Shown here piece after piece: positions 36,763 to 64,000 of a DNA stretch of 64,000 nt; the first letter of the stretch is position 1, and each line of letters begins with the position of its first letter. Origin of the DNA: an uncultured Acidimicrobiales bacterium (GTDB lineage Bacteria > Actinomycetota > Acidimicrobiia > Acidimicrobiales > SZUA-35). The stretch covers positions 1-64,000 of the forward strand of contig CALKZY010000043.1 in assembly GCA_938002965.1 (NCBI GenBank), read 5' to 3'. The notes below the pieces were generated by a model. The model had not been told where the DNA came from. It did no database searches and was given only the letters and a program-made list of their open reading frames with translations. The position numbers and the translations under genes were made by a program.

Positions 36763-36782
36763 CGGTGACCGGGCCTAGGGCC

Positions 36783-39618: not shown

Positions 39619-39715
39619 TCACACTAACAACAAGTGGCCGGGCAACCAGCACGTCCAACGTCGCAGACTCCCAGCAACCGCCCCGGAGGATCGGTTTCGG
39701 ATTGTAGGGCGTAGC

Positions 39716-40759: not shown

Positions 40760-40811
40760 CAGTGGAGGTTACCGAGTCGAAGGACCCGGCCACCCCTCGC
40801 CGACGCTGACC

Positions 40812-44204: not shown

Positions 44205-44286
44205 AACTGTAGTCCAAGGCCAGATTCAAGTGGCGGAGGGTTTCGATCCCAACGCCTCGATAAGGCCGACGCCGGTCGGCGCCAGG

Positions 44287-45975: not shown

Positions 45976-46865
45976 CAGGAATCAGCCCGGCCGAGGGCGG
46001 CCATAACCTGGCGACAACGGTCGTCCATCCCCGGCGGGGTTGGCCCCATCGGCAGTCGACACTCTCCTACTGGCACACCCAAATGGTTCATCATGGCTTT
46101 CGTTGGCACGGGGCTGGGGGCATCGTCGTAGGCGAAGTGGCCGTACGCCGGCATCATTCGGCGGTGCCACTGCGTCGCCTCGGCAACCTTTCCTTCACTA
46201 AAGGCGGAAATCATGGCGGCCATTTCTCGACCGGCATAGTGGGTGATGACGCCGACCACTCCAACGGCGCCAACCGATAGGAGCGGCAGTGTCAGTCCGT
46301 CATCGCCGGAGTAGACCTCAAAGGCCGGGTCTACCTGAGCCAGGAACGACGCAGTTTCGGATGGATCGCCGGAAGCATCCTTCAGGGCCACGACGTTGTC
46401 GATCTCAGCCAGACGCAGCAAGGTCGACGTCTCAATCTTGCGGCCGGTCCGACCGGGGACGTCATAGACCATGACCGGCAGGTCGGTGGCTTCAGCCGAT
46501 GCTAAGAAGTGCTGATACATCCCTTCCTGGGACGGCCGGTTGTAATACGGGGCCACTGCCAAGATGCCGTCAACACCCACGTCGGTGGCCGTCTTCGTGT
46601 TCTTGACCGCCACGGCCGTGTCGTTGCTGCCTGCGCCGGCCACCAGCGAATGACCTGGGATTGCTTCGCGCACCGCAGTAAAGAGGTCTCGCTGCTCCTC
46701 ATAGGAGATCGTCGCCGATTCGCCGGTCGTCCCGGCAACGACGACGCCGTCGTTGCCGTTGTCCACCAAGTACTTGGCCAACTTCTGGGCCGCGGGCAAA
46801 TCAAGCTTGCCCTCGGCGGTGAATGGCGTGACCATTGCGGTGAGTACTGGGCCGAACCTGGCCAT
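45975..46865 (-). CDS. dapA: 4-hydroxy-tetrahydrodipicolinate synthase
   Basis: Condenses pyruvate with aspartate semialdehyde, the first committed step of DAP/lysine synthesis. The 296 residues have GTTGES (45-50), Tyr134 in MVYDVPGRTG and the Schiff-base Lys162 in VALKDASGD. A strong AGGAGG lies 8 bases before the ATG. It begins the dapA-rnj-ftsK run. The leader upstream (46866-46986) holds a short CCGCC/GGCGG hairpin. Confidence 0.95.
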   Translation of the reverse strand: MARFGPVLTAMVTPFTAEGKLDLPAAQKLAKYLVDNGNDGVVVAGTTGESATISYEEQRDLFTAVREAIPGHSLVAGAGSNDTAVAVKNTKTATDVGVDGILAVAPYYNRPSQEGMYQHFLASAEATDLPVMVYDVPGRTGRKIETSTLLRLAEIDNVVALKDASGDPSETASFLAQVDPAFEVYSGDDGLTLPLLSVGAVGVVGVITHYAGREMAAMISAFSEGKVAEATQWHRRMMPAYGHFAYDDAPSPVPTKAMMNHLGVPVGECRLPMGPTPPGMDDRCRQVMAALGRADS

Positions 46866-46986
46866 GGGATTGTCCTCCTGTATGGATCCGCCGCTCGGCG
46901 GTCTGCTTTGGGATACGTTCCGATCGGTTCCGATGGTGGTTTCCGGTAGCAGTCCTCGTGGTTGTGTTACGTCACTTATGGTTCAC

Positions 46987-47757
46987 TTAGTTTTCACGGC
47001 CTTGAGGCGAGCCAACCTCGGCTCGTAGTCGAGCATGCTCCCTGGCACGGTCAAGACCCAATGTGGCCAGGAAATCGTCATGCAGCTCGAACCAAATCGT
47101 ATGATATGAGTCCACCGTGGGCTTGGTCAGCCAGTCAACTCGACCTTCGATGACGTTGGAGAGCGCAGATTCAAGTCGGCGTTCGTAGCGTGCAAACCTT
47201 GGATGCGCCTGGCTGAGCATACGGCAAACAGGCTTCACCCGCTCGTGAATACCTGCTAGGTCATGAATAATTGCCTGGTCGTAATCCGGATCGCTGTGAT
47301 CGTTTAAGACCAGCGGATCGCGTCCAACCACTTGCCACCTCGTGCAAAGATCCAACACTGAGCCGTTGAGCGGGACGAAGCGCTCGTACGCCTTCAACAC
47401 CTCAACGCGTGGACTTCGGCCCGTCGCTGCAGTGCCCGAAACAGCGCAATCCAGCTGGTGTTGTAGGAGCTTCTCCCCCACCCGGCGCCCTTCGGCTGTG
47501 AGCACCCAACCGGCTCTGTCACCCAGACGCTCCACCACAAGGTCTTGGTCGACTGCTTCGGCCAGCATCTGCGCCACGACGGTGAGATCCAGTTCCTCGG
47601 CCAACGCCACCGACTCTATGGAAGCCATGCCGCTGAGGCGCAGACGCAGCAAGATACATGCCATTCGGTCCGCTTCAACACAGGCACTCCCGCAACCGGT
47701 TGCCATGAAGGCCCGGGACCTGTCATCAGATCCGCTGGGTGGGTTCGGCGTGGTCAC
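46987..47757 (-). CDS. Conserved protein with a predicted N-terminal winged-helix region
   Basis: A 256-residue protein. Residues about 33-110 look like a winged helix (LRLSGMASIESVALAEELDL, then a wing before GWVLTAEGRRVGEKLL). The rest is helical with conserved-looking YHTIWFELHDDFLATLG near the end. I recall similar proteins in actinobacteria annotated as transcriptional regulators, but no ligand or target is visible. It overlaps the SURF1 gene by 4 bases (ATGA), so the two are co-translated, which may hint at a link with respiration. Confidence 0.6.
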   Translation of the reverse strand: MTTPNPPSGSDDRSRAFMATGCGSACVEADRMACILLRLRLSGMASIESVALAEELDLTVVAQMLAEAVDQDLVVERLGDRAGWVLTAEGRRVGEKLLQHQLDCAVSGTAATGRSPRVEVLKAYERFVPLNGSVLDLCTRWQVVGRDPLVLNDHSDPDYDQAIIHDLAGIHERVKPVCRMLSQAHPRFARYERRLESALSNVIEGRVDWLTKPTVDSYHTIWFELHDDFLATLGLDRAREHARLRAEVGSPQGREN

Positions 47758-48608
47758 GCTATGACCCGATCAGATTCGGCCCGGTGTGCCCGCCGACGAA
47801 CGACGGCCAGATAGAAGACAGTGCCAAGGATCGCGAAGATGAACCACTGAACGGCGTAGGAAAGATGTGGGCCTTCGCTCAGCTCTGGAAGTGGAACCGG
47901 ATCGGGAAAGTCGGCTGTGGCGTCGCCGTCGGGTGCCAGCTGAAGAAAGAACGGTGGAAGCGGTTGACCCACTCGAGAGCTAAGGGCCGCGGTATCGAAC
48001 CGAGGCAGCAAGCGACCCTCGCCGGTGTCAGCTACGGCAAACCAACCTTCAGGCTCGACCGTATCTCGAAGCCAGCCGGACACTTCGGTGCGCGCTGTCG
48101 GTGGATCGGTCAACTCGACAGCGGCGTTGATCGGTACGAAGCCCCTGTTGACCGCCAGGAACGTCCCATCGTCGAACTCCAGCAAGGCCACAACATACTC
48201 ACCGGCTACGCCCCCTTGGGAGCGGTTGGTGATCCGGGCAACGTCGGCGTCGACAAGTACGCCTGTGGCCACGGCCCGACGGAAATCGACACTGCCACTG
48301 CCGCCAAAACTGTCTTCAGCCTCACTACTGCCGTCAGGACCTATGCCGGGCTCGACACTATCGATGACAAGCGGAACCTCCCCGGTTCTCGCGGCTATCA
48401 GGACATTCTCCGCTTGACGCTGCTCCAGGCGATCCAGCTGCCAGAGCCCGAGAAAGACAAATAACGAAACCACGCTCAAGGCGAAGACATGCGACATTAC
48501 CCACCAAGGCCGGGCGGCGAACGCCCATTCAGGGCCGCTGGGAGTCTTGGTACCGGCGTCCGGGCGATCGGACTCATCCGGGGCTAGGGAGATCTGTTCG
48601 GTCGACAT
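47754..48608 (-). CDS. SURF1 family cytochrome c oxidase assembly protein
   Basis: A 284-residue protein with one N-terminal and one C-terminal membrane helix flanking an outer domain. Family marks are FLGLWQLDRLEQRQAEN after the first helix, the ITNRSQGGVAGEYVV and LAVNRGFVPI segments, and SYAVQWFIFAILGTVFY at the end. SURF1 helps insert haem into cytochrome oxidase. I start at MSTEQISLAP (48608); the frame is open 76 codons upstream but that part has no family similarity. No oxidase genes are in the window. Confidence 0.85.
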   Translation of the reverse strand: MSTEQISLAPDESDRPDAGTKTPSGPEWAFAARPWWVMSHVFALSVVSLFVFLGLWQLDRLEQRQAENVLIAARTGEVPLVIDSVEPGIGPDGSSEAEDSFGGSGSVDFRRAVATGVLVDADVARITNRSQGGVAGEYVVALLEFDDGTFLAVNRGFVPINAAVELTDPPTARTEVSGWLRDTVEPEGWFAVADTGEGRLLPRFDTAALSSRVGQPLPPFFLQLAPDGDATADFPDPVPLPELSEGPHLSYAVQWFIFAILGTVFYLAVVRRRAHRAESDRVIA

Positions 48609-48812
48609 GACAATTGGTATCCCGTTGCCCGCCGAATCGTGACACGTTACACCGCTGGGTGGTGCCGGGCGAGCCTCTAGAACTAGCTTCCACGCTACCG
48701 AGATATCCAGCGTGAACATGTGAGATAAACACAGTCGACCACCGGCTTCGTTGAGGGCAGGTGAACAACCAGCATCCGGCGAGTATTCGCCCGACGATTC
48801 TGTAAGACTGCT

Positions 48813-49544
48813 TTGGTGGCTTTCAGACGAGGTCAACCACCATCCAAGCCCATCGTTCGAATCATCATCGGGCTGGTCATGCTGTCGCAGGGAGCAGCCA
48901 TATTCGGCGATCTGGTGCTGGCTGAGTTCGTCGACAGCCGTCCCGGTTTACTTATCGCTCTCAATCCCCGGAACCGCAATCTCACCCTGGCGACCAATCA
49001 GCTCGACGCGGTCACCTTCTACGTCGTTGGTTTCTGCCGCTTGGTGGCCTCCGACCCGCTCTACTTCCTGCTCGGCTACTGGTACGGCGAGAAAGCCATC
49101 GCCTGGACCGAGCGACGGAGTCGCACCTACGGACCGCTGATACGCGAAGGCGAGCAAATGTTTAGGCGGGCTTCTTATCCGCTGATCTTCATGATGCCCA
49201 ACAACATCATCTGTGCCATGTCGGCGGCTACCGGCGTCAGCCTGCCGATCTTCATCGCTCTCAATGTCAGTGGGACAGTGACCAGACTGATCATAATCCG
49301 TCAGGTGGGCGAGGTATTCGCCTCCCCGCTACAACGGGTCGTGGACTTCATCGCCGAGTACCGGGTTCCGATTCTCATCCTGTCGGCGGTTCTTGTCGCC
49401 TGGACCGTCTACAACGAGTTCTTTGCCGCCGACTCCGAGGCCCGAAGCCTTGTCGAACTGGGTAACGAAGCAGACGCCGCAGGTGAAGCAGAAGGCTCGA
49501 CCGAGTCGAGCAAAGGTTCTGGGCAGGCCGACTTCGAGAACTAG
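48813..49544 (+). CDS. DedA/VTT-like membrane protein
   Basis: A 243-residue membrane protein with four to five helices. A DedA-like core runs through SDPLYFLLGYWYGEKA, a basic/acidic loop, then MMPNNIICAMSAATGVSLPIFIALNVSGT, where DedA proteins carry Gly/Pro re-entrant loops. The usual FxGRFxPxxR Arg motif is not clear (the stretch reads SYPLIFMMPNN), so it is a distant relative. The start is TTG 48813 or GTG 48816. The C-terminal 40 residues are acidic. It is divergent from SURF1, with 204 bases between. Confidence 0.6.
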   Translation: MVAFRRGQPPSKPIVRIIIGLVMLSQGAAIFGDLVLAEFVDSRPGLLIALNPRNRNLTLATNQLDAVTFYVVGFCRLVASDPLYFLLGYWYGEKAIAWTERRSRTYGPLIREGEQMFRRASYPLIFMMPNNIICAMSAATGVSLPIFIALNVSGTVTRLIIIRQVGEVFASPLQRVVDFIAEYRVPILILSAVLVAWTVYNEFFAADSEARSLVELGNEADAAGEAEGSTESSKGSGQADFEN

Positions 49545-49557
49545 GCCGGCGGGCCGG

Positions 49558-50361
49558 CTACAGGTCCAGAACCTGATCGAGCCCGATGGTCACACCCGGT
49601 ATCGCTGCCACCCGGCGGACGGCCAATACCACGCCAGGCATGAACGAGGAACGGTCATAGGAGTCGTGGCGGAGCGTCAGGGTTTGGCCCATCGCACCCA
49701 AAACCACTTCCTGGTGCGCAACCATCCCTCTCATCCGAACAGAGTGAATGCGTATACCTGACGGGCCTTCGGCACCTCGGGCGTTGGCCACCGTCTCCGA
49801 CTCGGTCGGATCGTCAGCCCAGTCCGGGGATGCCTTTGCCATGCGCTCGGCGGTAGACACTGCTGTCCCGCTCGGAGCATCGACCTTCTGGTCGTGATGA
49901 AGCTCAATGATCTCACCGGTGTCGAAATACGGTGACGCCAGTTCGGCGAAGCGCATCATGAGTACTGCGCCGATGGCGAAGTTGGGAGCGATGATGCAAT
50001 TCGATCGGTCAAAAGCCGAGCGAAGACCGTCGTAGTCAGCCTCGCTGAAGCCCGACGTGCCGACAACGGCGTGAATGCCGTTCTCGGCACAGAATCGGAC
50101 GTTCTGGCGTGCCGCCTCAGGGTGAGTGAAGTCGACCATTACGTCGACAACCGGCCGGCCCGCCCCATCGATGAGGGGCGCACCGGTTGAAGAAACAGGA
50201 AAGTCATGGCCGGAAAACCCGGTGACTTCCCCAACGTTTATCCCCTCGAATGAGGGATCAACCGCCGCGGTGAAGGCCAGACCATCAGTCTCACTGATAG
50301 CACTGGCGACCAGGGTGCCCATACGGCCCCCTACGCCAAAAACTCCGACTCGAATGGTCAT
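49558..50361 (-). CDS. dapB: 4-hydroxy-tetrahydrodipicolinate reductase
   Basis: Reduces the DapA product with NAD(P)H. The 267 residues show GVGGRMG (9-15) for the nucleotide, VDFTHPEAARQN, VVGTSGFSE, and the active-site ELHHDQKVDAPSGTA (His155/156, Lys159). It lies 25 bases after pnp on the same strand, as in many actinobacteria. Confidence 0.95.
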   Translation of the reverse strand: MTIRVGVFGVGGRMGTLVASAISETDGLAFTAAVDPSFEGINVGEVTGFSGHDFPVSSTGAPLIDGAGRPVVDVMVDFTHPEAARQNVRFCAENGIHAVVGTSGFSEADYDGLRSAFDRSNCIIAPNFAIGAVLMMRFAELASPYFDTGEIIELHHDQKVDAPSGTAVSTAERMAKASPDWADDPTESETVANARGAEGPSGIRIHSVRMRGMVAHQEVVLGAMGQTLTLRHDSYDRSSFMPGVVLAVRRVAAIPGVTIGLDQVLDL

Positions 50362-50386
50362 GGCCTTACACCCGGCGATTCACTTG

Positions 50387-52810
50387 TTAGCTGCGACGAC
50401 CGCGGCCACGGCCTCCGCCACCGCCGCCGCCACTGCGGCTGCGATTGCGAGGTCGACGATCGTTTTCCGGCACCACTGCGGAGCCCTCGGGCCCGAGTTC
50501 ACCGAAGCCCGACGGTTCGAAGTCCTCTTCAAACGACATCGTCATGGCCGAAGAAGACTCGGCCCCGTCGTCGTTATTGGAGCGAGACCGCGAGCGGCCT
50601 CCGCCGGAGCCTCCTCCGTCGGAGCTGCGAGTGTCGGCAGCCATTCGAAGCGAGATCTTTCCGTTGGGATCGATGTCCTCAACCGATACCTCGACCTCTT
50701 GGCCCAATTCGAGCACGTCTTCGACCTTGTCGATCCGCTTGCCCATCCCGATCTTGGAGATGTGAAGCAAGCCATCGCGACCAGGAAGAATGTTGACGAA
50801 AGCGCCGAACTTGGTGATGTTGACGACCCGTCCGCTGTAGACCTCGCCCACGTCAGCCGTCGGCGGATCAAGAATCAAACGAATCTGACGCTCTGCCTCA
50901 TCGACCACAGCCTTGTCGGTTGCGGCCACGGACACGATTCCGACCTGTCCATCGTCGTCGACGGAAATGTCGGCGCCGGTCTCGGTCTGAATGGCGTTGA
51001 TGACCTTGCCCTTCGGGCCGATGACCTCACCGATCTTGTCGACCGGGATCTCGAAGCTGACAATCTTCGGAGCACCTTCGCGGACATCCGCCCGGTGCTC
51101 GCCAATCGCCTTGTTCATGACGTCCAGGATCTGCAGACGGGCGTCCTTGGCCTGCTCCAGCGCTTGGGCCAGAACGTCGGCGGGAATGCCGTCGATCTTG
51201 GTGTCGAGCTGAAGTGCGGTAACGAAGTCAGATGTACCGGCCACCTTGAAGTCCATGTCACCGAAGGCGTCTTCCGCCCCCAAGATGTCGGTCAAGGTCG
51301 TGTACTTGCCTTCGGCGAAGACCAGACCCATGGCGATACCGGCAACCGGAGCCTTGATGGGAACACCGGCGTCCATGAGCGACAGCGACGAACCACAGAC
51401 CGAAGCCATTGAGGTCGACCCGTTGGAGGAAAGAACCTCGGACACCAAACGCAGCGTGTAGGGCCACTCCGACTCGTCGGGAACCACCGGAATAAGGGCC
51501 CGCTCGGCCAGTAGGCCGTGGCCGATCTCGCGACGCTTGGGGCCTCGCATAAAGCCGGTTTCACCAGTCGAGAACGGCGGGAAGTTGTAGTGATGGAGGT
51601 AACGCTTACGTTCCGTCGGATCAATACCGTCAATCAGCTGATCCATGCGGGTCATGCCCAGCGTCGAGATGTTCAGAACCTGAGTCTCGCCTCGCTGGAA
51701 CAGACCGGAACCGTGAACTCGAGGTACCACTCCGACCTCGGCCGAAACTGGCCGTAGATCAGCCGGACCGCGACCGTCAATGCGGTTGCCGTCTTCGACG
51801 ATGCGACGGCGGACAACGGCCTTCGACAGTGAACGGAAGGCAGACTTGATCTGCTTGTTGGCCAGCGCCTCGTCGTCACCGGCAAACTTCGGTACCAGGG
51901 CGGCGATCGTCTCGTCCTTGAGCGCACCCTCGGCGGCGCCACGCTCGGCCTTGTCGCCGATGCTCATGACCTCGACCATTTTGGCTTCAGCAGCGGCAGA
52001 AACGGCACTGTATTGCTCGTCGGTGTAGTCGACCTGAACTTCGTAGTCCATGGGCTCGCGACGTCCGCCCGAATCCTCCATGAGCTGCATCTGGAGGGCA
52101 ATTGCCTCCTTGATGTACTGCTTGGATGCTTCGAGGCCGGAAGCCAGGGCTGACTCGTCAACCTTGGGGGCACCGTTTTGATAGTTGGCCCACGAAGTCT
52201 TCGTGCCGCCTGCCTCGACCATCATGACGGCAACATCGCCGTTGTCGAGTTGACGACCAGCGACCACGATCTCAAACGAGGACTCGTCACCCTCTTGGAA
52301 GGTCGGATGTGGCAGCCACTCGCCTTCGGTGGTGTACGCCAAGCGCACTGCGCCGATGGCGTCCTCGAACGGAACGTTCGAGACCATAAGGGCGGCGGAG
52401 GCGGCATTGATGGCCATCACATCGTGGGGATGAGCCATGTCGGCCGACAGAACCGTAACCACTACGTGGGTTTCGTTGCGGTACCCGTCAGGGAACGACG
52501 GGCGTAGTGGCCGGTCGATCAAACGAGCGGTGAGGGTTGCCGTGTCGGGGGCTCGCCCCTCACGACGGAAAAACGAACCGGGGATCTTGCCTGCGGCGTA
52601 GGACCGCTCTTCAACGTCCACGGTTAGCGGAAAGAAATCGATACCTTCACGTACCGATCGGGCGCCGGTGGCAGCCACCAGCACACTGGTGTCGCCCATT
52701 CGGGCAACAACCGAACCACTGGCCAAACCGGCAAGTTTGCCGGTCTCCAGGTACAGCTCAGGGCCGTCACCACCGGTGACGGTCCCCGATACGGAAACAA
52801 CGTCCGTCAT
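50387..52810 (-). CDS. pnp: Polyribonucleotide nucleotidyltransferase (PNPase)
   Basis: A phosphorolytic 3'-5' exoribonuclease of RNA decay, which also adds tails. The 807 residues hold two RNase PH-like domains (FFPLTVDVEERSYAAGKIPG in the first, GSSLSLMDAGVPIKAPVAGIAMG across the second active site), a KH domain (IGEVIGPKGKVINAIQ) and an S1 domain (GEVYSGRVVNITKFGAFVNI). An Arg/Gly/Ser-rich tail follows. The start at MTDVVSVSG has AGGAGAA six bases upstream; 16 more upstream codons are open but not used. It follows rpsO as usual. Confidence 0.96.
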   Translation of the reverse strand: MTDVVSVSGTVTGGDGPELYLETGKLAGLASGSVVARMGDTSVLVAATGARSVREGIDFFPLTVDVEERSYAAGKIPGSFFRREGRAPDTATLTARLIDRPLRPSFPDGYRNETHVVVTVLSADMAHPHDVMAINAASAALMVSNVPFEDAIGAVRLAYTTEGEWLPHPTFQEGDESSFEIVVAGRQLDNGDVAVMMVEAGGTKTSWANYQNGAPKVDESALASGLEASKQYIKEAIALQMQLMEDSGGRREPMDYEVQVDYTDEQYSAVSAAAEAKMVEVMSIGDKAERGAAEGALKDETIAALVPKFAGDDEALANKQIKSAFRSLSKAVVRRRIVEDGNRIDGRGPADLRPVSAEVGVVPRVHGSGLFQRGETQVLNISTLGMTRMDQLIDGIDPTERKRYLHHYNFPPFSTGETGFMRGPKRREIGHGLLAERALIPVVPDESEWPYTLRLVSEVLSSNGSTSMASVCGSSLSLMDAGVPIKAPVAGIAMGLVFAEGKYTTLTDILGAEDAFGDMDFKVAGTSDFVTALQLDTKIDGIPADVLAQALEQAKDARLQILDVMNKAIGEHRADVREGAPKIVSFEIPVDKIGEVIGPKGKVINAIQTETGADISVDDDGQVGIVSVAATDKAVVDEAERQIRLILDPPTADVGEVYSGRVVNITKFGAFVNILPGRDGLLHISKIGMGKRIDKVEDVLELGQEVEVSVEDIDPNGKISLRMAADTRSSDGGGSGGGRSRSRSNNDDGAESSSAMTMSFEEDFEPSGFGELGPEGSAVVPENDRRPRNRSRSGGGGGGGRGRGRRS

Positions 52811-53170
52811 TGGGATTCTCCTATTGGTCTTAGCGCGACGAGAACCTTTTCTCGCCACTTCAGGCCAGATCCCAGATTTCGATCACCCGGTTCGGTGCCG
52901 CTATGGTAAACATCCGCCACACAGTGGCGAGTGTGTCCAGTCGGTGGGCGGATCGACGGTGTGTCGCAATAGGACACGGGGAACCGAAAACTGGCAGCTG
53001 ACCTGCTTCAGTATTAGTGCGTAGCAACGCAAGTGCGCCGCAACACTGCTGGTCATACTATCGCCAAATAACGCCAACCTGTGAGATACCTCTCAGTGGC
53101 GATCAACGGCGCAACGATGACAGGCTGGACTCGCCCAAGCCGATCCGGCTGTATGGACCGGATCCAGTGA
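52811..53170 (-). other. rpsO-pnp intergenic region with a hairpin after rpsO
   Basis: These 360 bases hold no gene I can support. A perfect GATCCGG/CCGGATC stem with a 9-base loop lies at 53142-53164, just after the rpsO stop, without a T-run. In other bacteria this interval contains a pnp promoter and RNase processing signals; I could not place them. Confidence 0.45.
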
Positions 53171-53449
53171 TTATCGACGCAGACCCAGTTCGGCGATGAG
53201 GGTTCGGTACCGCTCAACGTCGATGGAGGCCAGATAGTCGAGCATCCGACGTCGCCGACCAACGAGGGCCAGCAGACCACGCTGAGTGTGATAGTCCTTC
53301 TTGTGGACCTTCAGGTGTTCGGTCAGATGGTTGATGCGATCGGTGGCCAGAGCAATCTGGACCTCGGGTGAACCGGTGTCTCCCTCGGCACGGGCGAACT
53401 TGGCCATGGTGTCGGCCTTGGCTGGCAAATTGGAAGCTGGCTTGGACAT
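53171..53449 (-). CDS. rpsO: 30S ribosomal protein S15
   Basis: A 92-residue S15, slightly longer than the usual 88-89. It shows the family helices [36 protein letters not shown] and [18 protein letters not shown], and binds 16S rRNA early in assembly. The start [10 protein letters not shown] is preceded by AAGAGGT; a longer open frame upstream is not coding. A hairpin in its leader may serve autoregulation. Confidence 0.96.
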
Positions 53450-53481
53450 GATTCGTACCTCTTGGGGGTGAACAACGGTGA

Positions 53482-53500
53482 CTCCGAGTCGGTCTCGGAG
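53482..53500 (-). promoter_or_regulatory. Hairpin in the rpsO leader
   Basis: A perfect 7-bp stem CTCCGAG/CTCGGAG around a 5-base loop lies about 33 bases upstream of the rpsO start. A TATGAT -10-like hexamer on the minus strand (53575-53580) would give a leader of about 120 bases. S15 often represses its own translation through leader structures, so this is a candidate by position only. Confidence 0.3.
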
Positions 53501-53636
53501 CTCGGGACCCTTGGCCCTGCCACCTGACCCGCTCCCCCAACTTCTGCTGAGGGCGGCATCGGTAGCGACCAACAATCATAACGGCGCGGGTCGGCCGAGC
53601 CACCGCTCAAACTGGCCAGATGTGCTGGGGCCAGGT

Positions 53637-55127
53637 TTACTGTGGCCAAACCAGGGTGTCGGGGTGGAACTGCGACCAGGCAAACCAGAACGCCTGGTGA
53701 GCTGGCACCTCGCTACCGTCGCCGTCGACGGCCCGAAGGCCTCCCCCGTCGGCCACCACTTCAATCAACCGGGCTCCTCCAACCTCACCAGGAACATCAA
53801 TGCTGACTGGTGATCCAGCAGCCAACACCGCCCTTGCCGCATCAACGTGGAAGGCAACGGCCTGGCCAGATTTGGTAATTACCCCCAACACATCGGCCTG
53901 AACCTGCAGGCGAGCATCGGTCGACCCAATCGGGAAAATCGGGCCATCGGCATCGCGAGTGGAACGAAAGTCAGGGTCCCGACCTAGCGCAAGATCCTCT
54001 GCCAGCACCGTCGTTTCGGGATAAGCGGCCCGCCATTCAGCCCAGGTGGTAGTCACAACGCCGTGTTGCTCAAGAACAATACCTTCCTCCAGCAGCGGGC
54101 CGGAGGTGGCTGCTCCGGTGAAGGCGTCGAACAACGACCACGTGGTGATGTCGAACATGACCTTGTTCGAGCGGCTCAACAAACCCGACGTTCGCAACAC
54201 CGGCCGTTCGACGTTGGCGGGCACGACATCGGTCAGGAACATCTGGGCTGAACCGCACAACGTGCAGTACGGCAAGGCGAAATGTCGTCCGCCGAGCGAG
54301 TCGTTGACCATCTCACGGACCTCCATGATTCGTCGGGGGTACGCCCGAGCTTCACCGTCAACGACCACGCCGAAAACCACGGCGTCGTCACCTAGCCATC
54401 GAGCGTCTTGTGCGCTGGTCACCGTCGGGTTGTCTACGGCGGCAATGCAGAGGCACGACTCATCGCTTCCGAACGGTCGGTCATCGATGCCCACCCCGCC
54501 CCACGACACCAACCTCCAATCGAGTTCCGTGTCGGCTTGAAAGAACGGTTCCCACTGAGGCACCAGCGCAGTGAAGATGTTGCGCTTCGCTTTCAGGTAG
54601 CCGGGCGGCGCCGGTACATCCCATGCGATCAAATGGTTGTTGATCTCGGCCCACGATGTGGTGTCGGGGAAGTCTCTGTCCAGCAGCTCCTCGGCCACGC
54701 CGTTCAACCGGATCACCAATCCGACGTCTCCAGCTAACCGCAGCACGTCACTGACGATCCAGGCCAACCTCACGTCGCCCGATGACGTTATGAGATCGAG
54801 GGCCTCGATCTCCTCCGCTCGAACGGATCCATCGAAGTCGTCCCCGGCCAATGCGGCCACTGCCGCTTCGAGTTCGGGGGTGAGTGGACCGGACGGAATC
54901 GGAGGCGGGGACCCATAGGTGGTTTCCGTCCCGCTGACTGCCAAAGCCAGAGCCTCAGCCAGCCTGGAGTCGACTTCGCTCTTTGCACCCTCCGTTGAAG
55001 GCAGCAGGCCGTCTCCCGCCCCTGGCTCGTCCGGGATCGTACAGGCGGTCACGATCAACAACGTCCCGAGGCAGGCGACAAGCCAAAGTCGAGCTGGCAA
55101 GGTTACTGGCCGTCTGGTCGGGGCCAC
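53637..55127 (-). CDS. DUF3179 domain-containing lipoprotein
   Basis: A 496-residue exported protein with a signal helix ending in lipobox VTAC (Cys29). The DUF3179 region is about residues 200-420: DARWLGDDAVVFGVVVDGEA, ARAYPRRIMEVREMVND and HFALPYCTLCGSAQMF with two Cys two residues apart. Members are exported and of unknown function; the Cys pair and His suggest metal binding, which is inference. The N-terminal 170 residues are helical. It sits between ribF and rpsO with a 25-base gap from ribF. Confidence 0.8.
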   Translation of the reverse strand: MAPTRRPVTLPARLWLVACLGTLLIVTACTIPDEPGAGDGLLPSTEGAKSEVDSRLAEALALAVSGTETTYGSPPPIPSGPLTPELEAAVAALAGDDFDGSVRAEEIEALDLITSSGDVRLAWIVSDVLRLAGDVGLVIRLNGVAEELLDRDFPDTTSWAEINNHLIAWDVPAPPGYLKAKRNIFTALVPQWEPFFQADTELDWRLVSWGGVGIDDRPFGSDESCLCIAAVDNPTVTSAQDARWLGDDAVVFGVVVDGEARAYPRRIMEVREMVNDSLGGRHFALPYCTLCGSAQMFLTDVVPANVERPVLRTSGLLSRSNKVMFDITTWSLFDAFTGAATSGPLLEEGIVLEQHGVVTTTWAEWRAAYPETTVLAEDLALGRDPDFRSTRDADGPIFPIGSTDARLQVQADVLGVITKSGQAVAFHVDAARAVLAAGSPVSIDVPGEVGGARLIEVVADGGGLRAVDGDGSEVPAHQAFWFAWSQFHPDTLVWPQ

Positions 55128-55152
55128 TTTTGGTCCATTGACCGAAAACCCG

Positions 55153-56178
55153 CTAGGCCGTCAGGTAATTCCGGGCAGCCTCGACATCTCGCTGGAGCTG
55201 TTCGGTCAGTGCGTCGAGCCCGTCGAACTTCCGCTCAGCCCTGAGGCGGGAGATGAATTGGATACCACCACGCACACCGTAGAGATCACCGTTCCAGTCG
55301 ATCAGGTGAGCCTCTATCACCGAGTGTTCAGCGTTGTCGTAGAACGTTGGGCGTTTCCCGATGTTGATCGCACAGGGCCATCGGTCGGGAACCGAACTAT
55401 CAGTCGGATTCGAAGCATCATCTGAGTTCTTTGTCTCGACCCACCACCCGGCATATACGCCGTCAGCTGGCACGGCCATGTTGGCTGGCACAGCAACGTT
55501 GGCTGTTGGAAACCCAATCGTGCGTCCACGTTGATCCCCTTGAACAACCGTTCCTCGAATCTCGTGCGGCCGCCCTAGAAGACGGGCCGCCAGCTCCACA
55601 TCGCCGTCGGTTACTGTGCGGCGCACCGCGGTGGATGAGATCGGGTCGGCGCGGCCATGGTGCACGCCGCCGGAAACCACATCTTCCTGCAGCGAAAGGG
55701 GGCGGCCTTCGACGCTAAAGTCGTGCTGCAAACCCAAGGCCTCAAGTAGAGCGACATCGCCTTTTCGGTCACGACCGAAGTGGAAGTCGTTGCCGACGAC
55801 AACATGGGCAACCCCCAACGCGCCGACCAGAACGGTGGTCACGAAATCATCAGCGGTCTCTTCGGATCGGGCTTGGTCAAACCTCACCACCACAACGGTG
55901 TCCACCCCGAGGTCGTCTAGAAGTTCAAGCTTGTGATCAAAGCTCGTCAACGTGGCCGGTGTCATCTCCGGGCGCAAGACGGCGGCCGGATGGGGGTCGA
56001 ACGTAACAACGGCCAGTGCGGCAGATGCTTCATTAGCCGACCGTCGGGCTCGCTCGATGATGCTGCGGTGCCCTCGGTGGACTCCATCGAAGACCCCGAG
56101 CGCAGCAGCATGGCGACGCCCAAACAAGGGCCACCTCGATGGGTCTGACCGGGCATCCAAGTCGACAATTACATCCAC
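55153..56178 (-). CDS. ribF: Bifunctional riboflavin kinase/FAD synthetase
   Basis: Makes FMN and then FAD from riboflavin. The 341 residues have an N-terminal adenylyltransferase domain (GVFDGVHRGHRSII, VTFDPHPAAVLRP, VVGNDFHFGRDRKGDV and SSTAVRRTV) and a C-terminal kinase domain (RGTVVQGDQRGRTIGFPTAN with the TAN motif, AINIGKRPTF, EAHLIDWNGDLYG). It follows truB as in most bacteria. Confidence 0.95.
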   Translation of the reverse strand: MDVIVDLDARSDPSRWPLFGRRHAAALGVFDGVHRGHRSIIERARRSANEASAALAVVTFDPHPAAVLRPEMTPATLTSFDHKLELLDDLGVDTVVVVRFDQARSEETADDFVTTVLVGALGVAHVVVGNDFHFGRDRKGDVALLEALGLQHDFSVEGRPLSLQEDVVSGGVHHGRADPISSTAVRRTVTDGDVELAARLLGRPHEIRGTVVQGDQRGRTIGFPTANVAVPANMAVPADGVYAGWWVETKNSDDASNPTDSSVPDRWPCAINIGKRPTFYDNAEHSVIEAHLIDWNGDLYGVRGGIQFISRLRAERKFDGLDALTEQLQRDVEAARNYLTA

Positions 56179-56213
56179 TGTTCAGGCACCGTATCCCATC
56201 GCCTGGTCAACAG

Positions 56214-57086
56214 TCATGCCGGACGCAGGACCTTCACTGCTCGCAACTCACCGTCGCGGCTCTCGTAGAGGGCAATCAGATCTCCGACCCCATCCACCAC
56301 GCCGACCAGACCTGACCCCGTCGATGGACCCAGCGATCGGCCGTGGCTTACATCGGTTGCCATCGCTGCATCGGCCGTCACAACCGCAACGCCCGGTAAC
56401 AGATCGCGAACCGGCCGCAACGTAAAGTCGTCGAGAGACTCAGCTTCGGCCTCGGTAACAGTCCCGACAGCGGAGCGGCGTAGATTCCGCAGGTGGGCTC
56501 CACCCCCGAGGGCTGTTCCCAAGTCAGCGGCCAGGGTACGGATATAGGTGCCGGACGAACAATCCACCTCGGCCCGGTAGACCAACGGATCCGAGGTCTG
56601 CTCGATGTCAAATCGGTGCACGGTCACCGGACGAGGCTTTCGTTCGATCTCAACCCCCTCCCGAGCCAGCTCATGAAGTCTGCGGCCGTCAACCTTGACG
56701 GCCGAAACCATGGGTGGAATCTGCTCGATAGGGCCGGTCAGATTGGAAACGGCACCAGCGACCTCGACAGGGTCCAACGAACCCATGTCGTAAGTTGCAG
56801 TGACCTGGCCGCCAGCATCGAGAGTGTCGGTCTCTGTACCGAAAACGATCTCAGCGGTATAGGACTTGTCGGCCCCGGTGACGAACTGGAGAAGCTTGGT
56901 TCCGGCACCGACACCAAGAATGAGTACTCCGGTGGCATCGGGATCGAGTGTTCCCGAGTGGCCGACTTTTCTGGTGCCCAGTCGGCGGCGGACCTGGTCT
57001 ACCACATCGTGGCTGGTACATCCCGTCGGCTTGTCGATGACGACGCAGCCGGATACCCCGGAGTCAGGTCGGCGACGACGACTCAT
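56214..57086 (-). CDS. truB: tRNA pseudouridine(55) synthase
   Basis: Forms pseudouridine 55 in the T-loop of tRNAs. The 290 residues begin MSRRRRPDSGVSG and show VIDKPTGCTSHDVVDQVRR, KVGHSGTLDPDATGVL with the catalytic Asp, and YTAEIVFGTETDTLDAGG. A C-terminal PUA-like region ends the protein. The start codon lies inside the end of rbfA (23-base overlap). The open frame extends much further upstream in rbfA, where it is a shadow. Confidence 0.94.
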   Translation of the reverse strand: MSRRRRPDSGVSGCVVIDKPTGCTSHDVVDQVRRRLGTRKVGHSGTLDPDATGVLILGVGAGTKLLQFVTGADKSYTAEIVFGTETDTLDAGGQVTATYDMGSLDPVEVAGAVSNLTGPIEQIPPMVSAVKVDGRRLHELAREGVEIERKPRPVTVHRFDIEQTSDPLVYRAEVDCSSGTYIRTLAADLGTALGGGAHLRNLRRSAVGTVTEAEAESLDDFTLRPVRDLLPGVAVVTADAAMATDVSHGRSLGPSTGSGLVGVVDGVGDLIALYESRDGELRAVKVLRPA

Positions 57087-57663
57087 CGTCTTCCTCATCA
57101 GCCGTGACTTCATGTTCAGCCGTGATTTCGTGTTCAGCCGAACCTTGTTCCTCAGCCGGGATTTCGTCGGATGAGTCATCGTCGGTGGTGTCCAACGTCG
57201 ACAAGATGGCGTCGATTCGGGCCCCGGTTCGGACCCCGGGGTCAACTTCGAAGACAACCTCCGGAGTCTTGCGAATCCGTGTCTCTCGACCGATCTTGGC
57301 CTGAATCGCCTTCCGATACTCACCCAGAGCATCCAGTACATACTCGTCGATACCCGCCGATTCGGTCTGATCCAGATCGCTGCCGTCCACGCCGTAGCGC
57401 TCCATCAGGTCGGGATCACTGATGAACACCCTCGCCTTGTTCAGATCGCTGTCGACCTCAACTCCGACAATGGTGATTAAGTCGAACCGTTCGTCGTCAA
57501 CCCGGCGGAAGAAGTCAGCCACGATCTCGTGCAGCAAGGAGTTCAATCGGGCGGTCCTGGGGAACTGCCTGTTCGTCGGCGGACGGCGAGCCCGGGCCTG
57601 GCCGGATCGACCCTTGGAGCCCGATCGGCCTTGATTCTTCTTTGATCTTGAGCCTCGTGCCAT
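57064..57663 (-). CDS. rbfA: 30S ribosome-binding factor RbfA with an acidic C-terminal extension
   Basis: A cold-shock and 16S maturation factor. The KH-like core (about residues 35-150) has RTARLNSLLHEIVADFF, ITIVGVEVDSDLNKARVF and TRIRKTPEVVFEVDPGV. The 199 residues exceed the usual 120-140 because of a basic N-terminal 30 residues and a strongly acidic tail containing a duplicated AEHE(I/V)TA unit encoded by an 18-bp tandem repeat. The start MARGSRSKK overlaps the DUF503 stop by one base (TGATG). Confidence 0.92.
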   Translation of the reverse strand: MARGSRSKKNQGRSGSKGRSGQARARRPPTNRQFPRTARLNSLLHEIVADFFRRVDDERFDLITIVGVEVDSDLNKARVFISDPDLMERYGVDGSDLDQTESAGIDEYVLDALGEYRKAIQAKIGRETRIRKTPEVVFEVDPGVRTGARIDAILSTLDTTDDDSSDEIPAEEQGSAEHEITAEHEVTADEEDDESSSPT

Positions 57664-57953
57664 CAGGATTCCTCCCACCAGCTTCTCTCGAAAGAGAGCA
57701 CTTCGACCTCGTGCCGAGACCAGATCAGGCGCTCGGCATCATCCATCATCTCGCCGACGTGACGAGATGATCCACTAACCGCAACAACCGCCACCAGCGT
57801 TCGCTGCGTGAGATCCTGATGATCCACCTCAGAGGCGGCTAGTCCGCTGCGTTGATCGAGCTTTGTGACCAATGACTGCACCACGGAGCGCTTCTCCTTG
57901 AGTGACTGAGAGGCCGGCAGACGCAGGTCCGCCGCGGCAACAAGAACAAACAT
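57663..57953 (-). CDS. DUF503 family protein (YlxP-like)
   Basis: A 96-residue protein: MFVLVAAADLRLPASQSLKE, then KEKRSVVQSLVTKL, and VVAVSGSSRHVGEMMDDAERL near the end. This small family regularly sits between infB and rbfA in Gram-positive bacteria and is thought to act in ribosome maturation, but its exact role is unproven. An alternative TTG start lies six codons upstream. Its presence marks this side of infB as Gram-positive. Confidence 0.88.
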   Translation of the reverse strand: MFVLVAAADLRLPASQSLKEKRSVVQSLVTKLDQRSGLAASEVDHQDLTQRTLVAVVAVSGSSRHVGEMMDDAERLIWSRHEVEVLSFERSWWEES

Positions 57954-58029
57954 GGACGTATCCAACCTCAACGAGACGGGAACCTACACGTCGCAGAACC
58001 AGGCTGGAAGCCTGTCCGAAACATGCCGA

Positions 58030-60735
58030 CTATTCGCGGGGAATCTCCCGCTCCTCGAAGGTTTCGATGATGTCACCGTCTTTGAGGTCCTGGAAGTCTG
58101 ACAAGCCGATGCCGCACTCAAATCCGGCGGCCACCTCTTGGGCGTCTTCTTTGAACCTCTTAAGCGACTGAATCGATCCCTTCCAGATGATCGTGCCTTC
58201 ACGCAGGAATCGAACCTTGGACCCGCGGGTGATGACACCGTTGGTGACCATACAACCGGCGATGGCGCCAATCCGGGGTACTCGGAAGATCTCGCGAACT
58301 TCGGCATCGCCGGTCACGACTTCCTCGTATTCGGGCTCAAGGAGACCAAGCATGGCGTTTTCGACATCTTCGAGCAGCTTGTAGATGATCTCGTAGTTAC
58401 GGATCTCCACCTGCTCCTGCTCGGCCATGTCACGAGCCTTGCGATCCGGGCGGACGTTGAATCCGAGGATCGTAGCGTTGGAAGCGCTGGCCAGTTGCAC
58501 GTCGTTCTCGGTGATTCCGCCGACGCCGCGGTGCACAAACGCCAACTTGACGTCATCGCGCTCACGACGCTTGAGGCTGTCGCAGACAGCTTCCAGCGAA
58601 CCACTTACGTCGGCTTTGACGATCAGGTTCAACGTGGCTGTCTCGCCGGCTTGAATCTGCTTGAAGATGTCCTCAAGTCGTGCGCCACCGCTGGTGGCTG
58701 AGGCGTCGCGTCCAAGCGAAGTCAAGCGTTGCCAGTGTTCGCGGGTGTCGGCGACCTTGCCTGCCACCTTTTCGTCTGGAGCAATAATGAACGTGTCACC
58801 GGCTTCGGCGACATCGCTCAAGCCCAGAACCTGAACAGGTGTGGCGGGAAGCGCAGTCTTGATCCGCTCCCCTCGATCGTTGACGAGAGCTCGGACTCGA
58901 CCCCAGGCGGCACCGGCCACCATCGGGTCACCGACGCTCAGGGTGCCGTGCTCGACCAAGACGGTGGCAACAGGGCCACGGCCGATATCGAGATTGGACT
59001 CCAGGACCGAGCCACTGGCACGGCCGTCGGGTGATGCCCTGTAGTCTTCGACCTCGGCCACCAGGCTGAGGCTTTCAAGCAGATCAGGAACACCGTCGCC
59101 GGTCATGGCCGACAACGGAATCATGATGGATTCGCCACCCCAATCCTCCGGGACCAGGTCGCGCTCTGCCAGTTGTGTCATCACCCGATTCGGGTCCGCA
59201 CCCTCGCGATCCATCTTGTTGATGGCGACGATGATGGGCACGTCGGCCGCTTTAGCGTGGTCGAGAGCCTCCAATGTCTGGGGCATCACACCATCGTCGG
59301 CGGCTACAACCAACACCACGATGTCGGTGGCGTCGGCACCACGGGCACGCATAGCGGTAAACGCCTCGTGACCGGGGGTGTCAAGGAATGTAATCGGCTT
59401 GCCGTCATGTTCGACCTGATAGGCACCGATGTGCTGGGTAATGCCCCCAGCTTCGCCAGCTGCGACCTTGGCACGACGGATGTAGTCGAGCAGCGAGGTC
59501 TTGCCGTGGTCGACGTGGCCCATGACAGTCACCACCGGAGCACGCGGCTCCAGCGGAATGTCCTTGTGCTCGGCATTTTCCTCAAGGAAGGCATCCGGAT
59601 CGTCCAGCTTGGCGGCAACCGCCTTGTGGCCCATTTCCTCGACCACGATCATGGCCGTTTCCTGATCCAGCACCTGGTTGATGGTCACCATCGAACCCAT
59701 CTTCATCATCGCCTTGATGACTTCCGTCGCCTTCACGGCCATCTTGTGGGCCAGATCGGAAACGGAGATGGTTTCGGGAATGTGCACTTCGCGGGTGATC
59801 GGCTCGGTCGGCGCCTGGAAGCTGCCCTGGCCGTCATCCGACTTGTGCGATTTCTTATGGCCGTGACGATTATCCTTCCAGCCGCCAGCACCATCGGAGC
59901 CGCGCGTCTTGATGCCGCCCTTCTTCTTGCCATCGTCGGCCGCGCGACCACCCTTATCGCCCTTCTTGGCACCGGTCTCCGGTTTCTTGTGCAGGGTTCC
60001 CTTCTCGCCTTCGCCGGCCTTGGCCTGGGCAGCAGCTTGCTGCTTGGCGAGTTCGGCAGCCTTGGCAGCCGCAGCAGCAGCTTCGGCCTGCTGACGCATC
60101 TGCGCCAGCTGGACTTCGCGAGCCTGCTTTTCGCGCAGTTCGCGCTCCTGAATTTCGCGCAGGCGGCTGGAACGGGCTGCCGCCTCCTGGCGTGCCTTCA
60201 ATTCCTTCTCGCCAATAATCGCGGCGCGGTCCAGAACCGGAGCGACAGGCTGCTCGACCACCGGCTCAGGAACCTCCTCAACCACCGGCTCCGGAATAAT
60301 TTCCGGCTCGGGCACGACTTCGACGACAGGCTCGGGCACGACTTCAACCACCGGCTCGGGAATCACTTCCACTTCCGGCACCTCAGGCTCGACCGGCAGA
60401 TGCTGCACTTCATGCTCGGCCCCCGGAAGATGCTCGCCAATGTCTCGCTTGACCAAAACGCGCTTCTTGCGGACTTCGACCTGAACCGTACGCGCACGAC
60501 CATGCGAGTCAGTCGACTTGATCTCTGACGTTTGCTTGCGTGTCAGGGTAATTTTGGTTTGCGACTCATCACCATGCGAGCGACGCAGATAATCCAGAAG
60601 CTTCGCCTTGTCCTGATCGGTCAGGGTATCGTTGGAACCGCCCTTGCTGACGCCAGCCTTGCTCAATTGCTCGAGCAAGACCGCGACCGGCATTTTGAGT
60701 TCAACGGCAAATTGTGAAACTGTTGTTGCGGACAT
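58030..60735 (-). CDS. infB: Translation initiation factor IF-2, apparent chimera of two species
   Basis: A 901-residue IF-2 that would place initiator tRNA on the 30S subunit. Residues 1 to about 400 are of betaproteobacterial type: an N-terminal IF2_N domain ([20 protein letters not shown]), a Pro-Glu-Pro repeat linker (about 115-165), an Ala/Lys/Glu-rich helix, and a second IF2_N domain with [20 protein letters not shown]. The G domain starts at GHVDHGKTS (406-414). From about residue 435 on the sequence is actinobacterial ([20 protein letters not shown], then [13 protein letters not shown]), including SAMTGDG and the C-terminal domains. The frame is unbroken across the join. nusA lies upstream, and actinobacterial DUF503 and rbfA lie downstream. 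Confidence 0.9.
59400..59560. other. Likely junction between actinobacterial and betaproteobacterial DNA
   Basis: Below this interval all genes fit an actinobacterium; above it all fit a betaproteobacterium. The interval codes for the most conserved part of IF-2 ([18 protein letters not shown] through [12 protein letters not shown]), where the two lineages are nearly identical, so the exact crossover cannot be placed. Assembly error is the simplest reading. Confidence 0.75.
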
Positions 60736-60752
60736 ACTTTGCTACCTCCCGC

Positions 60753-62225
60753 TCACTCGAACCAGTGAGCCCGTGCCTTCAGAATGAGTTCCTTGGCACG
60801 CTCGTCGTCGATGCCGGTCATTTCCGTCAGTTCATCAACCGCCAGTTCCGCGAGATCGTCGCGGGTCTTGACGTCATGTTCGGCCAATTTGGCGGCCAGT
60901 TCCTTGGTCATGCCTTCAAGACCGATCAGGTCTTCGGAGACATTTTCCAGCTTTTCCTCGGTGGCGATCGCTTCGGTCAGCAGGACATTACGGGCGCGGT
61001 TACGCAGCTCGTTGACGATTTCCTCGTCCAGACCGTCGATTTCCAACATTTCGGCCAGCGGCACATAGGCCACTTCCTCCAAGGTCGAGAAGCCCTCTTC
61101 GATCAGCAAGTCGGCGAGTTCTTCGTCGATGTCCAGCTTTTCCATGAAGGTGACGCGCGTTACCGCGTGCTCAGCCTCGGATTTCTTGGCCGATTCGTCC
61201 TGGGTCATCAGGTTGATGGTCCAGCCGGTCAGCTCGGAAGCCAGGCGGACATTCTGTCCGCTGCGGCCGATGGCGATGGCGAGGTTGTCCTCGTCGACCA
61301 CCACGTCCATGGCGTGCTTTTCCTCATCGACCACGATGGAGGACACCTCGGCCGGCGACAGGGCGCCGATGACGAATTGCGCCGGATCGGCCGACCACAG
61401 CACGATGTCGATGTTCTCGCCGCCGATCTCGTTGCGCACGGCGGTCACGCGCGAACCGCGCAGGCCGACGCAGGTGCCGATCGGATCGACACGCGGGTCG
61501 TTGGACTTGACGGCGATCTTGGCGCGCAGACCGGGGTCGCGGGCACAAGCCTTCAATTCCATCAGGCCATCGGAAATTTCCGGCACTTCGAGATCGAACA
61601 GCTTGATGACGAACTCGGGTGCGGTACGCGACAGGATGATCTGCGGGCCGCGAGCGTTGCGGTCAATGCGCAGCAAATAGGCCTTGACGCGGTCGCCGAT
61701 ACGCAGGTTTTCCTTCGGAATCATCTGGTCGCGCGGCAGCAGGGCTTCGATCTTGCCGGCCTCGATGATGGCGTTACCACGCTCCATGCGCTTGATGGTG
61801 CCGGAGACGATGTGCTCGCCGCGGCTCAGGAAGTCGGACAGGATCTGCTCGCGCTCGGCGTCGCGGATTTTCTGCAGGATGACCTGCTTGGCCGCCTGGG
61901 CACCGATACGGCCGAAGTCGATGGGTTCCAGAGGCTCTTCGAGAAAATCGCCGGCCTCGACATCCGGATCACCCTTTTGGGCTTCGGACAGCGGGACCTG
62001 CAGGTATTCGTTGACATACTCGCTGTCGGCGACGACTTGCCAGCGACGGAAGGAGTCATAGTTACCGGTATTGCGGTCGATCGAGACGCGTACTTCGGCC
62101 TCGTCGTGGATACGCTTTTTCGTCGCGGAAGCCAGCGCCAGCTCAAGGGCACCGAACACGATTTCCTTGGCGACGTTCTTTTCGCGGGCCAGTGCATCGA
62201 CCAGCAGCAACATTTCACGGCTCAT
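60753..62225 (-). CDS. nusA: Transcription termination/antitermination protein NusA (betaproteobacterial type)
   Basis: A 490-residue NusA with an N-terminal RNA-polymerase-binding domain ([18 protein letters not shown]), an S1 domain, two KH domains (DPVGxxxG-type [14 protein letters not shown], and [20 protein letters not shown]), and two C-terminal acidic repeats. The two C-terminal repeats and the short linker are proteobacterial; actinobacterial NusA proteins are about 350 residues and lack them. No ylxR gene follows, unlike in actinobacteria. It is 17 bases upstream of infB. Confidence 0.95.
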
Positions 62226-62246
62226 GGGCTAAAACCTCCTAGTCCT

Positions 62247-62693
62247 TCAGTCGAATCGGGGCACCAGACGTGCCTTCTCGATATTGGTAAATTCCAGTTC
62301 CACATCATCTTTTTCAAGACGCAAGCCAACCTTGCCGTCCTTGTGACCGAGCAGCTCGCCTTGAAAGTTGCGGCGGCCGTTGTGCGGGATACGCAGCTTG
62401 ATCTGGATATCCTGTCCGGCAAAGCGCTCGAAATCGGCCGCCTTCTTGACGACGCGATCCATGCCTGGGGAAGAAATCTCAAGCCGGTCGAAGTCGATGT
62501 TTTCAACCTCGAAAACACGCGTCAATTGATTCGAGACCTTGGCACAATCCTCGACATCGACGCCGCTCTCCTTGGCCGGCGCATCGATGAAGACACGAAT
62601 CGTGCGGCCGCGCGGCGACAGCTCGACATCGACGAGTTCATAACCCAGACCGACAACGGTCGTTTCCAGCAGCGCGTTTAAATCCATAGCCAC
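62247..62693 (-). CDS. rimP: Ribosome maturation factor RimP (betaproteobacterial type)
   Basis: A 148-residue 30S maturation factor: LGYELVDVELSPRGRTIRVF, GVDVEDCAKVSNQLTRVFEV, LEISSPGMDRVVKKAADFER and a C-terminal SH3-like domain with FQGELLGHKDGKVGL. The first Met is followed by MD, so Met3 is an alternative start. It heads the rimP-nusA-infB operon behind its own promoter and a leader hairpin. Confidence 0.95.
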   Translation of the reverse strand: MAMDLNALLETTVVGLGYELVDVELSPRGRTIRVFIDAPAKESGVDVEDCAKVSNQLTRVFEVENIDFDRLEISSPGMDRVVKKAADFERFAGQDIQIKLRIPHNGRRNFQGELLGHKDGKVGLRLEKDDVELEFTNIEKARLVPRFD

Positions 62694-62697
62694 AAAT

Positions 62698-62718
62698 AAA
62701 AAATGGGCGAAACGCCCA
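62698..62718 (-). terminator. Intrinsic-terminator-like hairpin in the rimP leader
   Basis: Read on the minus strand, TGGGCG-TTT-CGCCCA (62704-62718) is followed at once by six T residues (62698-62703), only a few bases before the rimP start. The form is that of a Rho-independent terminator inside the leader, suggesting attenuation of the rimP-nusA-infB operon. Confidence 0.6.
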
Positions 62719-62769
62719 CCTTGAAAAAAAGATGCCCACCAAAAAACGGCGGGAGAAACAAACCCGTGA

Positions 62770-62798
62770 ATTATAACGAGTTTATTCCCCCCGGTAAA
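62770..62798 (-). promoter_or_regulatory. Promoter of the rimP-nusA-infB operon
   Basis: On the minus strand TTTACC (62793-62798) is followed by a 17-base spacer and a perfect TATAAT (62770-62775). The start would be near 62763, giving a leader of about 70 bases that contains the terminator-like hairpin. Confidence 0.6.
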
Positions 62799-62803
62799 TC
62801 AAT

Positions 62804-63805
62804 TTAGGTGCTTTCCGCCCCCTTTTTCGAGGCTGCGACGGTCTTCCCGAGCTCACGCATCAGTGCTTTGACCTCATCCTCGGTCAACTCGTGCGAACGA
62901 CCGCGCTTCAATTGTGGCGGCAGGATGAACGGTCCGTAGCGCACACGGATGAGACGACTCACGGTACACCCCACCGCTTCGAACATGCGCCGCACTTCGC
63001 GATTGCGCCCCTCGAACAGCGATACGCGATACCACTTGTTCGCGCCCTCACCGCCGGCATCGACCAGACTGGCAAAATTGGCCGGACCATCCTCCAACTC
63101 GACCCCGGCAAGTAACTCCTTCTGCGCCTCCATGGTCAGTTCGCCCAGGACACGCACGGCGTACTCGCGCACCAGCTCGGAACTGGGGTGCATCAGCCTG
63201 TTGGCGAGTTCGCCCGAGGTTGTGAACAGCAGCAGGCCTGAGGTATTGAAGTCGAGGCGGCCGACATTGATCCAGCGTCCGCCCCGCATGCGCGGCAGCG
63301 CGGCAAAAACCGACGGCCGGCCGTCCGGATCGTCGCGCGAGACGATTTCACCTTCCGGCTTGTGGTACATCAGGACGCGCGGCGGCCTCGAGCTGCCGGT
63401 GAAGCGGATATTGATCAGACGACCGCCGACCTTGACCTTGTCGGTCGGCACCACGGACTGGCCGATCGTCGCGACGACGCCATTGACGCTGACCCTGCCG
63501 GCGGCGATCCACTCCTCCATCTCGCGACGGGAACCCACGCCGGCCTCGGCCAGCACCTTTTGCAGACGAACCGGCTTGGCTTCAGCCAGCGGACGTCCAT
63601 CACGGGCAACCTGGCCGCGATGGGCACGGCCGCCGGTATTGGGCGCCGGCTTGCGGCGCGGAGCCGGTTTGGCTTCGGCAGCGTCAACCGGTGCGGCACC
63701 ACGCTGCGAACGTGCAGCACCGCGGCGACCGGCCTCCGGCGGACGATCCGCCGCCGGGTCGGAATTGGGTGAGGATTGACGGAATGGTGTGCGTTTGTTT
63801 TTCAT
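62804..63805 (-). CDS. rluB: 23S rRNA pseudouridine synthase, RluB type (betaproteobacterial)
   Basis: A 333-residue RsuA-family enzyme. A long basic Pro/Arg/Ala N-terminal tail (about 75 residues) is followed by an S4 domain ([20 protein letters not shown]) and a catalytic domain with [10 protein letters not shown], the catalytic Asp in [14 protein letters not shown], and [13 protein letters not shown]. RluB acts at position 2605 of 23S rRNA. The adjacent scpB and following rimP-nusA-infB match betaproteobacterial gene order. Its start overlaps the scpB stop by one base (TAATG). Confidence 0.93.
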
Positions 63806-64000
63806 TATTCCAGCTCCAGTGTCTGGCTGATTTGTTCAAGCGGCGGCAGTTCGCTGACGCTACGTAGCCCAAGATCATCGAGAAATTGCTTGGTCGTGGC
63901 AAACAGGGCCGGCCGCCCGGGTGTTTCGCGATGGCCCACCACGTCAATCCAGCCGCGCTCTTCGAGTGTCTTGATCACGTTGGCGTTGACCGCGACCCCG
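63805..64000 (-). CDS. scpB: C-terminal part of segregation and condensation protein B
   Basis: The last 64 residues of ScpB, read from the window edge to the TAA at 63805-63807. The visible part holds the second winged helix: [16 protein letters not shown], then the family signature [20 protein letters not shown] and [14 protein letters not shown]. ScpB joins Smc and ScpA in chromosome condensation. The N-terminal two thirds lie outside the window. Confidence 0.88.

Follow-up and report, generated by a model that had tools for sequence, protein, structure and literature searches.

The window (the whole stretch of 64,000 nucleotides analysed here) corresponds to bases 1–64,000 of contig G000:C43, which is 69,516 bases long and belongs to a MAG (G000) of 57 contigs and 4.69 Mb. 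Near the right end of the window lies infB, which encodes IF-2, as a single open frame of 901 residues in which all the domains of that protein (IF2_assoc, IF2_N, GTP_EFTU and IF-2) are present. The frame differs from other IF-2 sequences in its make-up: its N-terminal part comes from an Azonexus and its C-terminal part from the lineage to which the window otherwise belongs. The genes on either side of the frame, the extent of DNA attributed to each of the two organisms, and the matches on which these assignments are based are collected in Table 1.

Table 1. Features on both sides of the join in infB, with window coordinates unless a contig is named.
Feature	Position	Strand	Basis
Window's own (actinobacterial-type) DNA	1..59419	.	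Tetranucleotide composition and identities of the infB 3' part
Azonexus DNA	59420..64000, continuing to contig end (C43:69516)	.	DNA identity and tetranucleotide composition
Join interval between the two organisms	59420..59445, right edge approximate	.	Identity to L041 and 10 same-genus loci
infB frame, almost certainly chimeric, 901 aa	58030..60735	-	Single open frame; residues 1 to ~430-438 Azonexus, remainder own genome
scpB (Azonexus)	63805..64000, cut by window end, runs to C43:64,398	-	TIGR00281 on L009:3806-4399
rluB (Azonexus)	62804..63805	-	NF007976
rimP (Azonexus)	62247..62693	-	NF000929
nusA (Azonexus), 490 aa, two C-terminal repeats	60753..62225	-	TIGR01953; TIGR01954 with 2 stretches
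DUF503 gene (own genome)	57663..57971	-	PF04456, E 1.4e-25; matched in Pfam, not in NCBIfam
rbfA (own genome)	57064..57678	-	NF010388, E 1.1e-12; TIGR00082, E 1.1e-11; both under curated cut-off
truB (own genome), true start probably later	56214..57341	-	TIGR00431
ribF (own genome)	55153..56178	-	NF004160
DUF3179 protein (own genome)	53637..55127	-	PF11376, E 1.8e-56
rpsO (own genome), true start probably later	53171..53575	-	PF00312, E 2.1e-35
pnp (own genome)	50387..52858	-	Best PDB match 8wx0, bifunctional guanosine pentaphosphate synthetase/PNPase
dapB (own genome)	49558..50361	-	TIGR00036

Family matches supported the genes that the initial annotation had placed upstream of infB, namely rimP, rluB, scpB and a 490-aa nusA whose product has two C-terminal repeats, and the Azonexus part of the contig additionally contains scpA and trpS. 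To the left of infB, the same annotation had correctly named DUF503, rbfA, truB, ribF, rpsO, pnp and dapB, but had omitted the DUF3179 gene located between ribF and rpsO. Matches to nusA, rimP, rluB, scpB, truB, ribF and dapB scored over the curated NCBIfam cut-offs, and those to scpA and rbfA scored under them. The description of the left part as ‘actinobacterial’ rests on gene order and on family form. The sole hint at an actinobacterial origin to come from our searches was provided by pnp, for which the top PDB entries are bifunctional guanosine pentaphosphate synthetase/PNPases, which we take to be the actinobacterial type. In the same-genus genome G007, a frame following ribF (L148:10115-11656) appears by eye to be similar to the DUF3179 gene of the window.

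We compared the two halves of the IF-2 frame separately, as had been proposed with the initial annotation, against two sets of sequences. The first comprises 29 infB loci obtained from the 40 relatives of the window's genome that were searched. The second comprises 80 loci from public genomes that were fetched by NusA similarity (the best 80 of at least 587 confirmed matches) and that carry titles of Betaproteobacteria, of a genus or family name, or of plain Proteobacteria. Residues 1–390 matched none of the 29 relatives' loci (at an E value of 1e-5) and all 80 of the NusA-fetched loci (best 80 of at least 587), with the top match to L041 at 100% identity; the match to L042 spans 31 residues only. 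Residues 440–901 matched all 29 relatives' loci at 70.5–96.3% identity; of the NusA-fetched loci (again the best 80 of at least 587), 75 matched. Most of the latter matches (71 of the 75) cover at least 400 residues at 47.6–53.4% identity, and the other four are shorter, at 51.1–81.5%, the value of 81.5% belonging to a match of 27 residues. The halves of the protein therefore have different nearest kin within a frame that remains open across the join, in agreement with the in-frame fusion originally described. The combination of an Azonexus N-terminal part with an own-lineage C-terminal part was absent from the 29 relatives' loci and from the best 80 of at least 587 NusA-fetched loci. A search of G000 with the IF-2 sequence returned one full match and ten partial ones at 26–37% identity.

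At the DNA level, most of the right part of the contig is identical to an Azonexus genome. Bases 59,420–64,873 match locus L041 without gaps or differences (5,454 of 5,454 bases); this locus is contig G041:C56 (CALJZP010000056.1) of uncultured Azonexus sp. isolate N1_Bin_Bin_168_sub_1. Bases 64,931–67,932 match another contig of the same MAG in the same manner (3,002 of 3,002 bases), giving a total of 8,456 compared bases with zero differences. No exact match among the compared sequences was observed for the 57 bases at 64,874–64,930 or for the 1,584 bases at 67,933–69,516, the second of which is 91–92% identical to the Azonexus-type MAGs G042 and G043 as far as both reach. For the NusA protein of the window, an identity of 100% is listed with L041, L042 and L043, which represent three uncultured Azonexus/Dechloromonas MAGs. 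A megablast search of window positions 59,570–63,805 against plasmids produced no match. The identity to L041 ends abruptly at 59,420, with agreement at 151 of 210 bases across 59,210–59,419.

The possibility that L041 is itself the hybrid was rejected: of the 79 other NusA-fetched loci (from the best 80 of at least 587), 73 are matched by the 410 bases of L041 that lie past the join. The best-scoring of these is Azonexus fungiphilus (L048), at 91.9% over 408 bases; the best-scoring match of the same bases to the window's relatives is 81.0% over 211. Judged by these matches, L041 is an ordinary Azonexus infB past the join.

Tetranucleotide composition, for which the initial annotation had suggested a plot along the window, flips at the join. 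The log-ratio between own-genome and Azonexus references was positive in all 23 of the 2.5-kb windows across C43 1–57,500, +0.016 in the one containing the join, and negative (Azonexus-like) in all four across 60,001–69,516. The Azonexus reference consisted of five G041 stretches (L143–L147) and the own reference of 11 of 12 sampled stretches of other G000 contigs (L131 having been excluded), with the result that only for C43, L131, L041 and L043 is the score independent of its references. G+C content alone displayed no clear step along the window. All 12 sampled stretches, which total 229,740 bases of 4.69 Mb, were own-like by tetranucleotides overall, and within this sample the idea that much of the MAG is Azonexus was rejected. 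A further reading, in which the entire contig derives from one organism with an unusual but vertically inherited IF-2, accounts for the open frame and for nothing else. The two halves differ in nearest kin, one of them at 100% DNA identity, and also in composition; the identity is decisive, and we consider this reading to have practically no chance of being correct.

The switch had initially been assigned to positions 59,400–59,560, at the GHVDHGKTS region. Running past the join toward the own side, the contig scores best among the relatives against L012 (82.4% over 410 bases) and, among the NusA-fetched loci (best 80 of at least 587), against L075 (73.6% over 299 bases). Ten same-genus loci, which come from 11 same-genus relatives (G003 yielded no infB locus), were used to examine the other edge: bases 59,420–59,439 are common to between 6 and 10 of the ten, base 59,440 is found in two of them, and base 59,446 in none. 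Because identity to Azonexus ends at 59,420 and sharing within the genus fades by 59,446, the crossover falls between 59,420 and approximately 59,445. Based on these alignments it is placed in the codons for ITQHIGAY, beyond GHVDHGKTS; the switch thus lies inside the interval originally given, but not at the motif that had been named.

The related proposal that the two organisms had been joined at a near-identical stretch is correct to the extent that a short exact match exists at the join, but in the nearest relative (L012) that match extends over only 17 bases. We also considered whether the join occurred where it did because this is the longest shared stretch, and rejected that explanation: the longest run of identical bases shared by L041 and a relative coincides with the join for five of the 29 relatives (L012, L017, L028, L033 and L037), is found at GHVDHGKT (59,497–59,526) for 16, and is elsewhere for eight. 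The short match at the join, together with a join located elsewhere even though GHVDHGKT is favoured in 16 of 29 cases, would argue against a chimeric contig.

The 5' part of the genome's own infB is located on a different contig. The end of G000:C25 contains rimP, nusA and then the first 221 residues of an infB, and the contig stops inside the Ala/Pro-rich part of that gene (G000:C25:66363-67027; L011:2852-3514). This infB piece matches 24 of the 29 relatives' loci, the best-scoring being L012 (91.5% over 82 residues), and matches none of the 80 NusA-fetched loci (best 80 of at least 587). In the same-genus genome G007, rimP, nusA, a 992-residue infB, rbfA, truB and ribF are arranged in a single row, and the rimP and nusA of C25 are 71.2% and 82.7% identical to their G007 counterparts. 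By the kin of the C25 tail and the gene row in G007, the two pieces of the own infB are the end of C25 and the part of C43 up to approximately 59,420–59,445, and a single gene seems to have come apart at these two places. The intervening portion (roughly residues 222–517 in G007 numbering), the first part of which is low-complexity by eye, was not found in G000. This gap, like the bases right of the join that lack an exact Azonexus match, counts against a chimeric contig.

When G000 was searched with nusA, rluB and trpS, each query hit its copy on C43 and a single diverged site elsewhere (46%, 42% and 45% identity, respectively), which speaks for a chimera, as does the single full match to IF-2. 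The diverged rluB-like and trpS-like places are separated by ∼1.6 kb near one end of contig C16 (G000:C16:368959-372322). The rluB-like match (42%) runs through one TGA, which we counted against a chimeric origin of C43.

The Azonexus identity over 8,456 bases and the presence of the own infB 5' part on C25 uphold the original suggestion that two organisms are joined inside infB. We believe, on the strength of these sequence comparisons, that C43 almost certainly combines DNA of two organisms belonging to separate phyla, as an artefact of assembly that added ∼10.1 kb of foreign Azonexus DNA, and that very probably no living cell contains a hybrid infB gene. The values listed for G000 are 91.46% completeness and 6.12% contamination, and the contamination counts in favour of a chimera.

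The rival that preserves the hybrid gene is a true and very recent recombination, in which a living actinobacterial-type cell acquired 10 kb or more of chromosomal DNA from Azonexus through a crossover in infB, and would now use the resulting cross-phylum IF-2 in translation. The frame does stay open through the join, and a single crossover would leave the 5' half of the own gene next to the distal end of the insert, an arrangement that the ends of C25 and C43 formally allow. Against this, not one of the 8,456 compared bases differs from the deposited Azonexus MAG, so that the DNA could have spent almost no time in another host, and the composition of the insert is still Azonexus-like. The reciprocal hybrid (own 5' and Azonexus 3' infB) was not found in a search of G000, which is an incomplete MAG, and no hybrid IF-2 was found in another independent genome, the Azonexus N-terminus being present in 0 of 29 loci from the 40 relatives searched. 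Taken with these observations, recombination appears highly improbable.

The artefact most likely arose as follows. The assembly of the own infB would have broken in its low-complexity 5' part, where C25 ends, leaving the 3' part as a loose end; the assembler, or a chimeric read, would then have crossed into the Azonexus infB at the brief stretch of identical bases within the codons for ITQHIGAY. A small k-mer, a merged contig or a chimeric molecule may each have produced the join. Both genes being infB and in register, the frame would remain open by homology and the product would look like a hybrid. The two organisms would presumably have shared one sample. In a variant of this artefact, a chimeric molecule was formed during library making and was then faithfully assembled. 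A short shared stretch suits template switching as well as it does small k-mers; a lone chimeric molecule, however, rarely outcompetes true reads unless coverage is low. We regard this variant as a rather unlikely route to the chimera, although one that accounts for a modest share of our confidence in an artefact.

C43 resembles interspecies chimeric contigs of metagenome assemblies in several respects: its two sides have different nearest relatives, its right side is identical to another organism's genome with that identity ending abruptly, the continuation of the own sequence is elsewhere in the assembly (at the end of C25), and there is a tetranucleotide step at the join. It differs from them in that the join leaves a conserved gene in frame and yields one intact-looking protein. 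PMC7111523 describes coverage and pair support as signs of such contigs, and PMC8201837 rates misassemblies as relatively rare.

If C43 is chimeric, the hybrid infB would be without biological importance and would be useful as a warning. The contig places nusA, rimP, rluB, scpA, scpB and trpS of Azonexus in the genome of another phylum, and the conserved gene infB is in use as a marker in phylogeny. Annotations, trees and counts of transfers that draw on C43 past 59,420 would be misled, and the contig is best regarded as ending at that position, with its right part excluded from the MAG.

The infB gene of the Azonexus MAG G041 is also split, into pieces of 575 and 352 residues on L041 (G041:C56) and L143 (G041:C8). 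With infB spanning two contigs, that assembly also broke within this gene.
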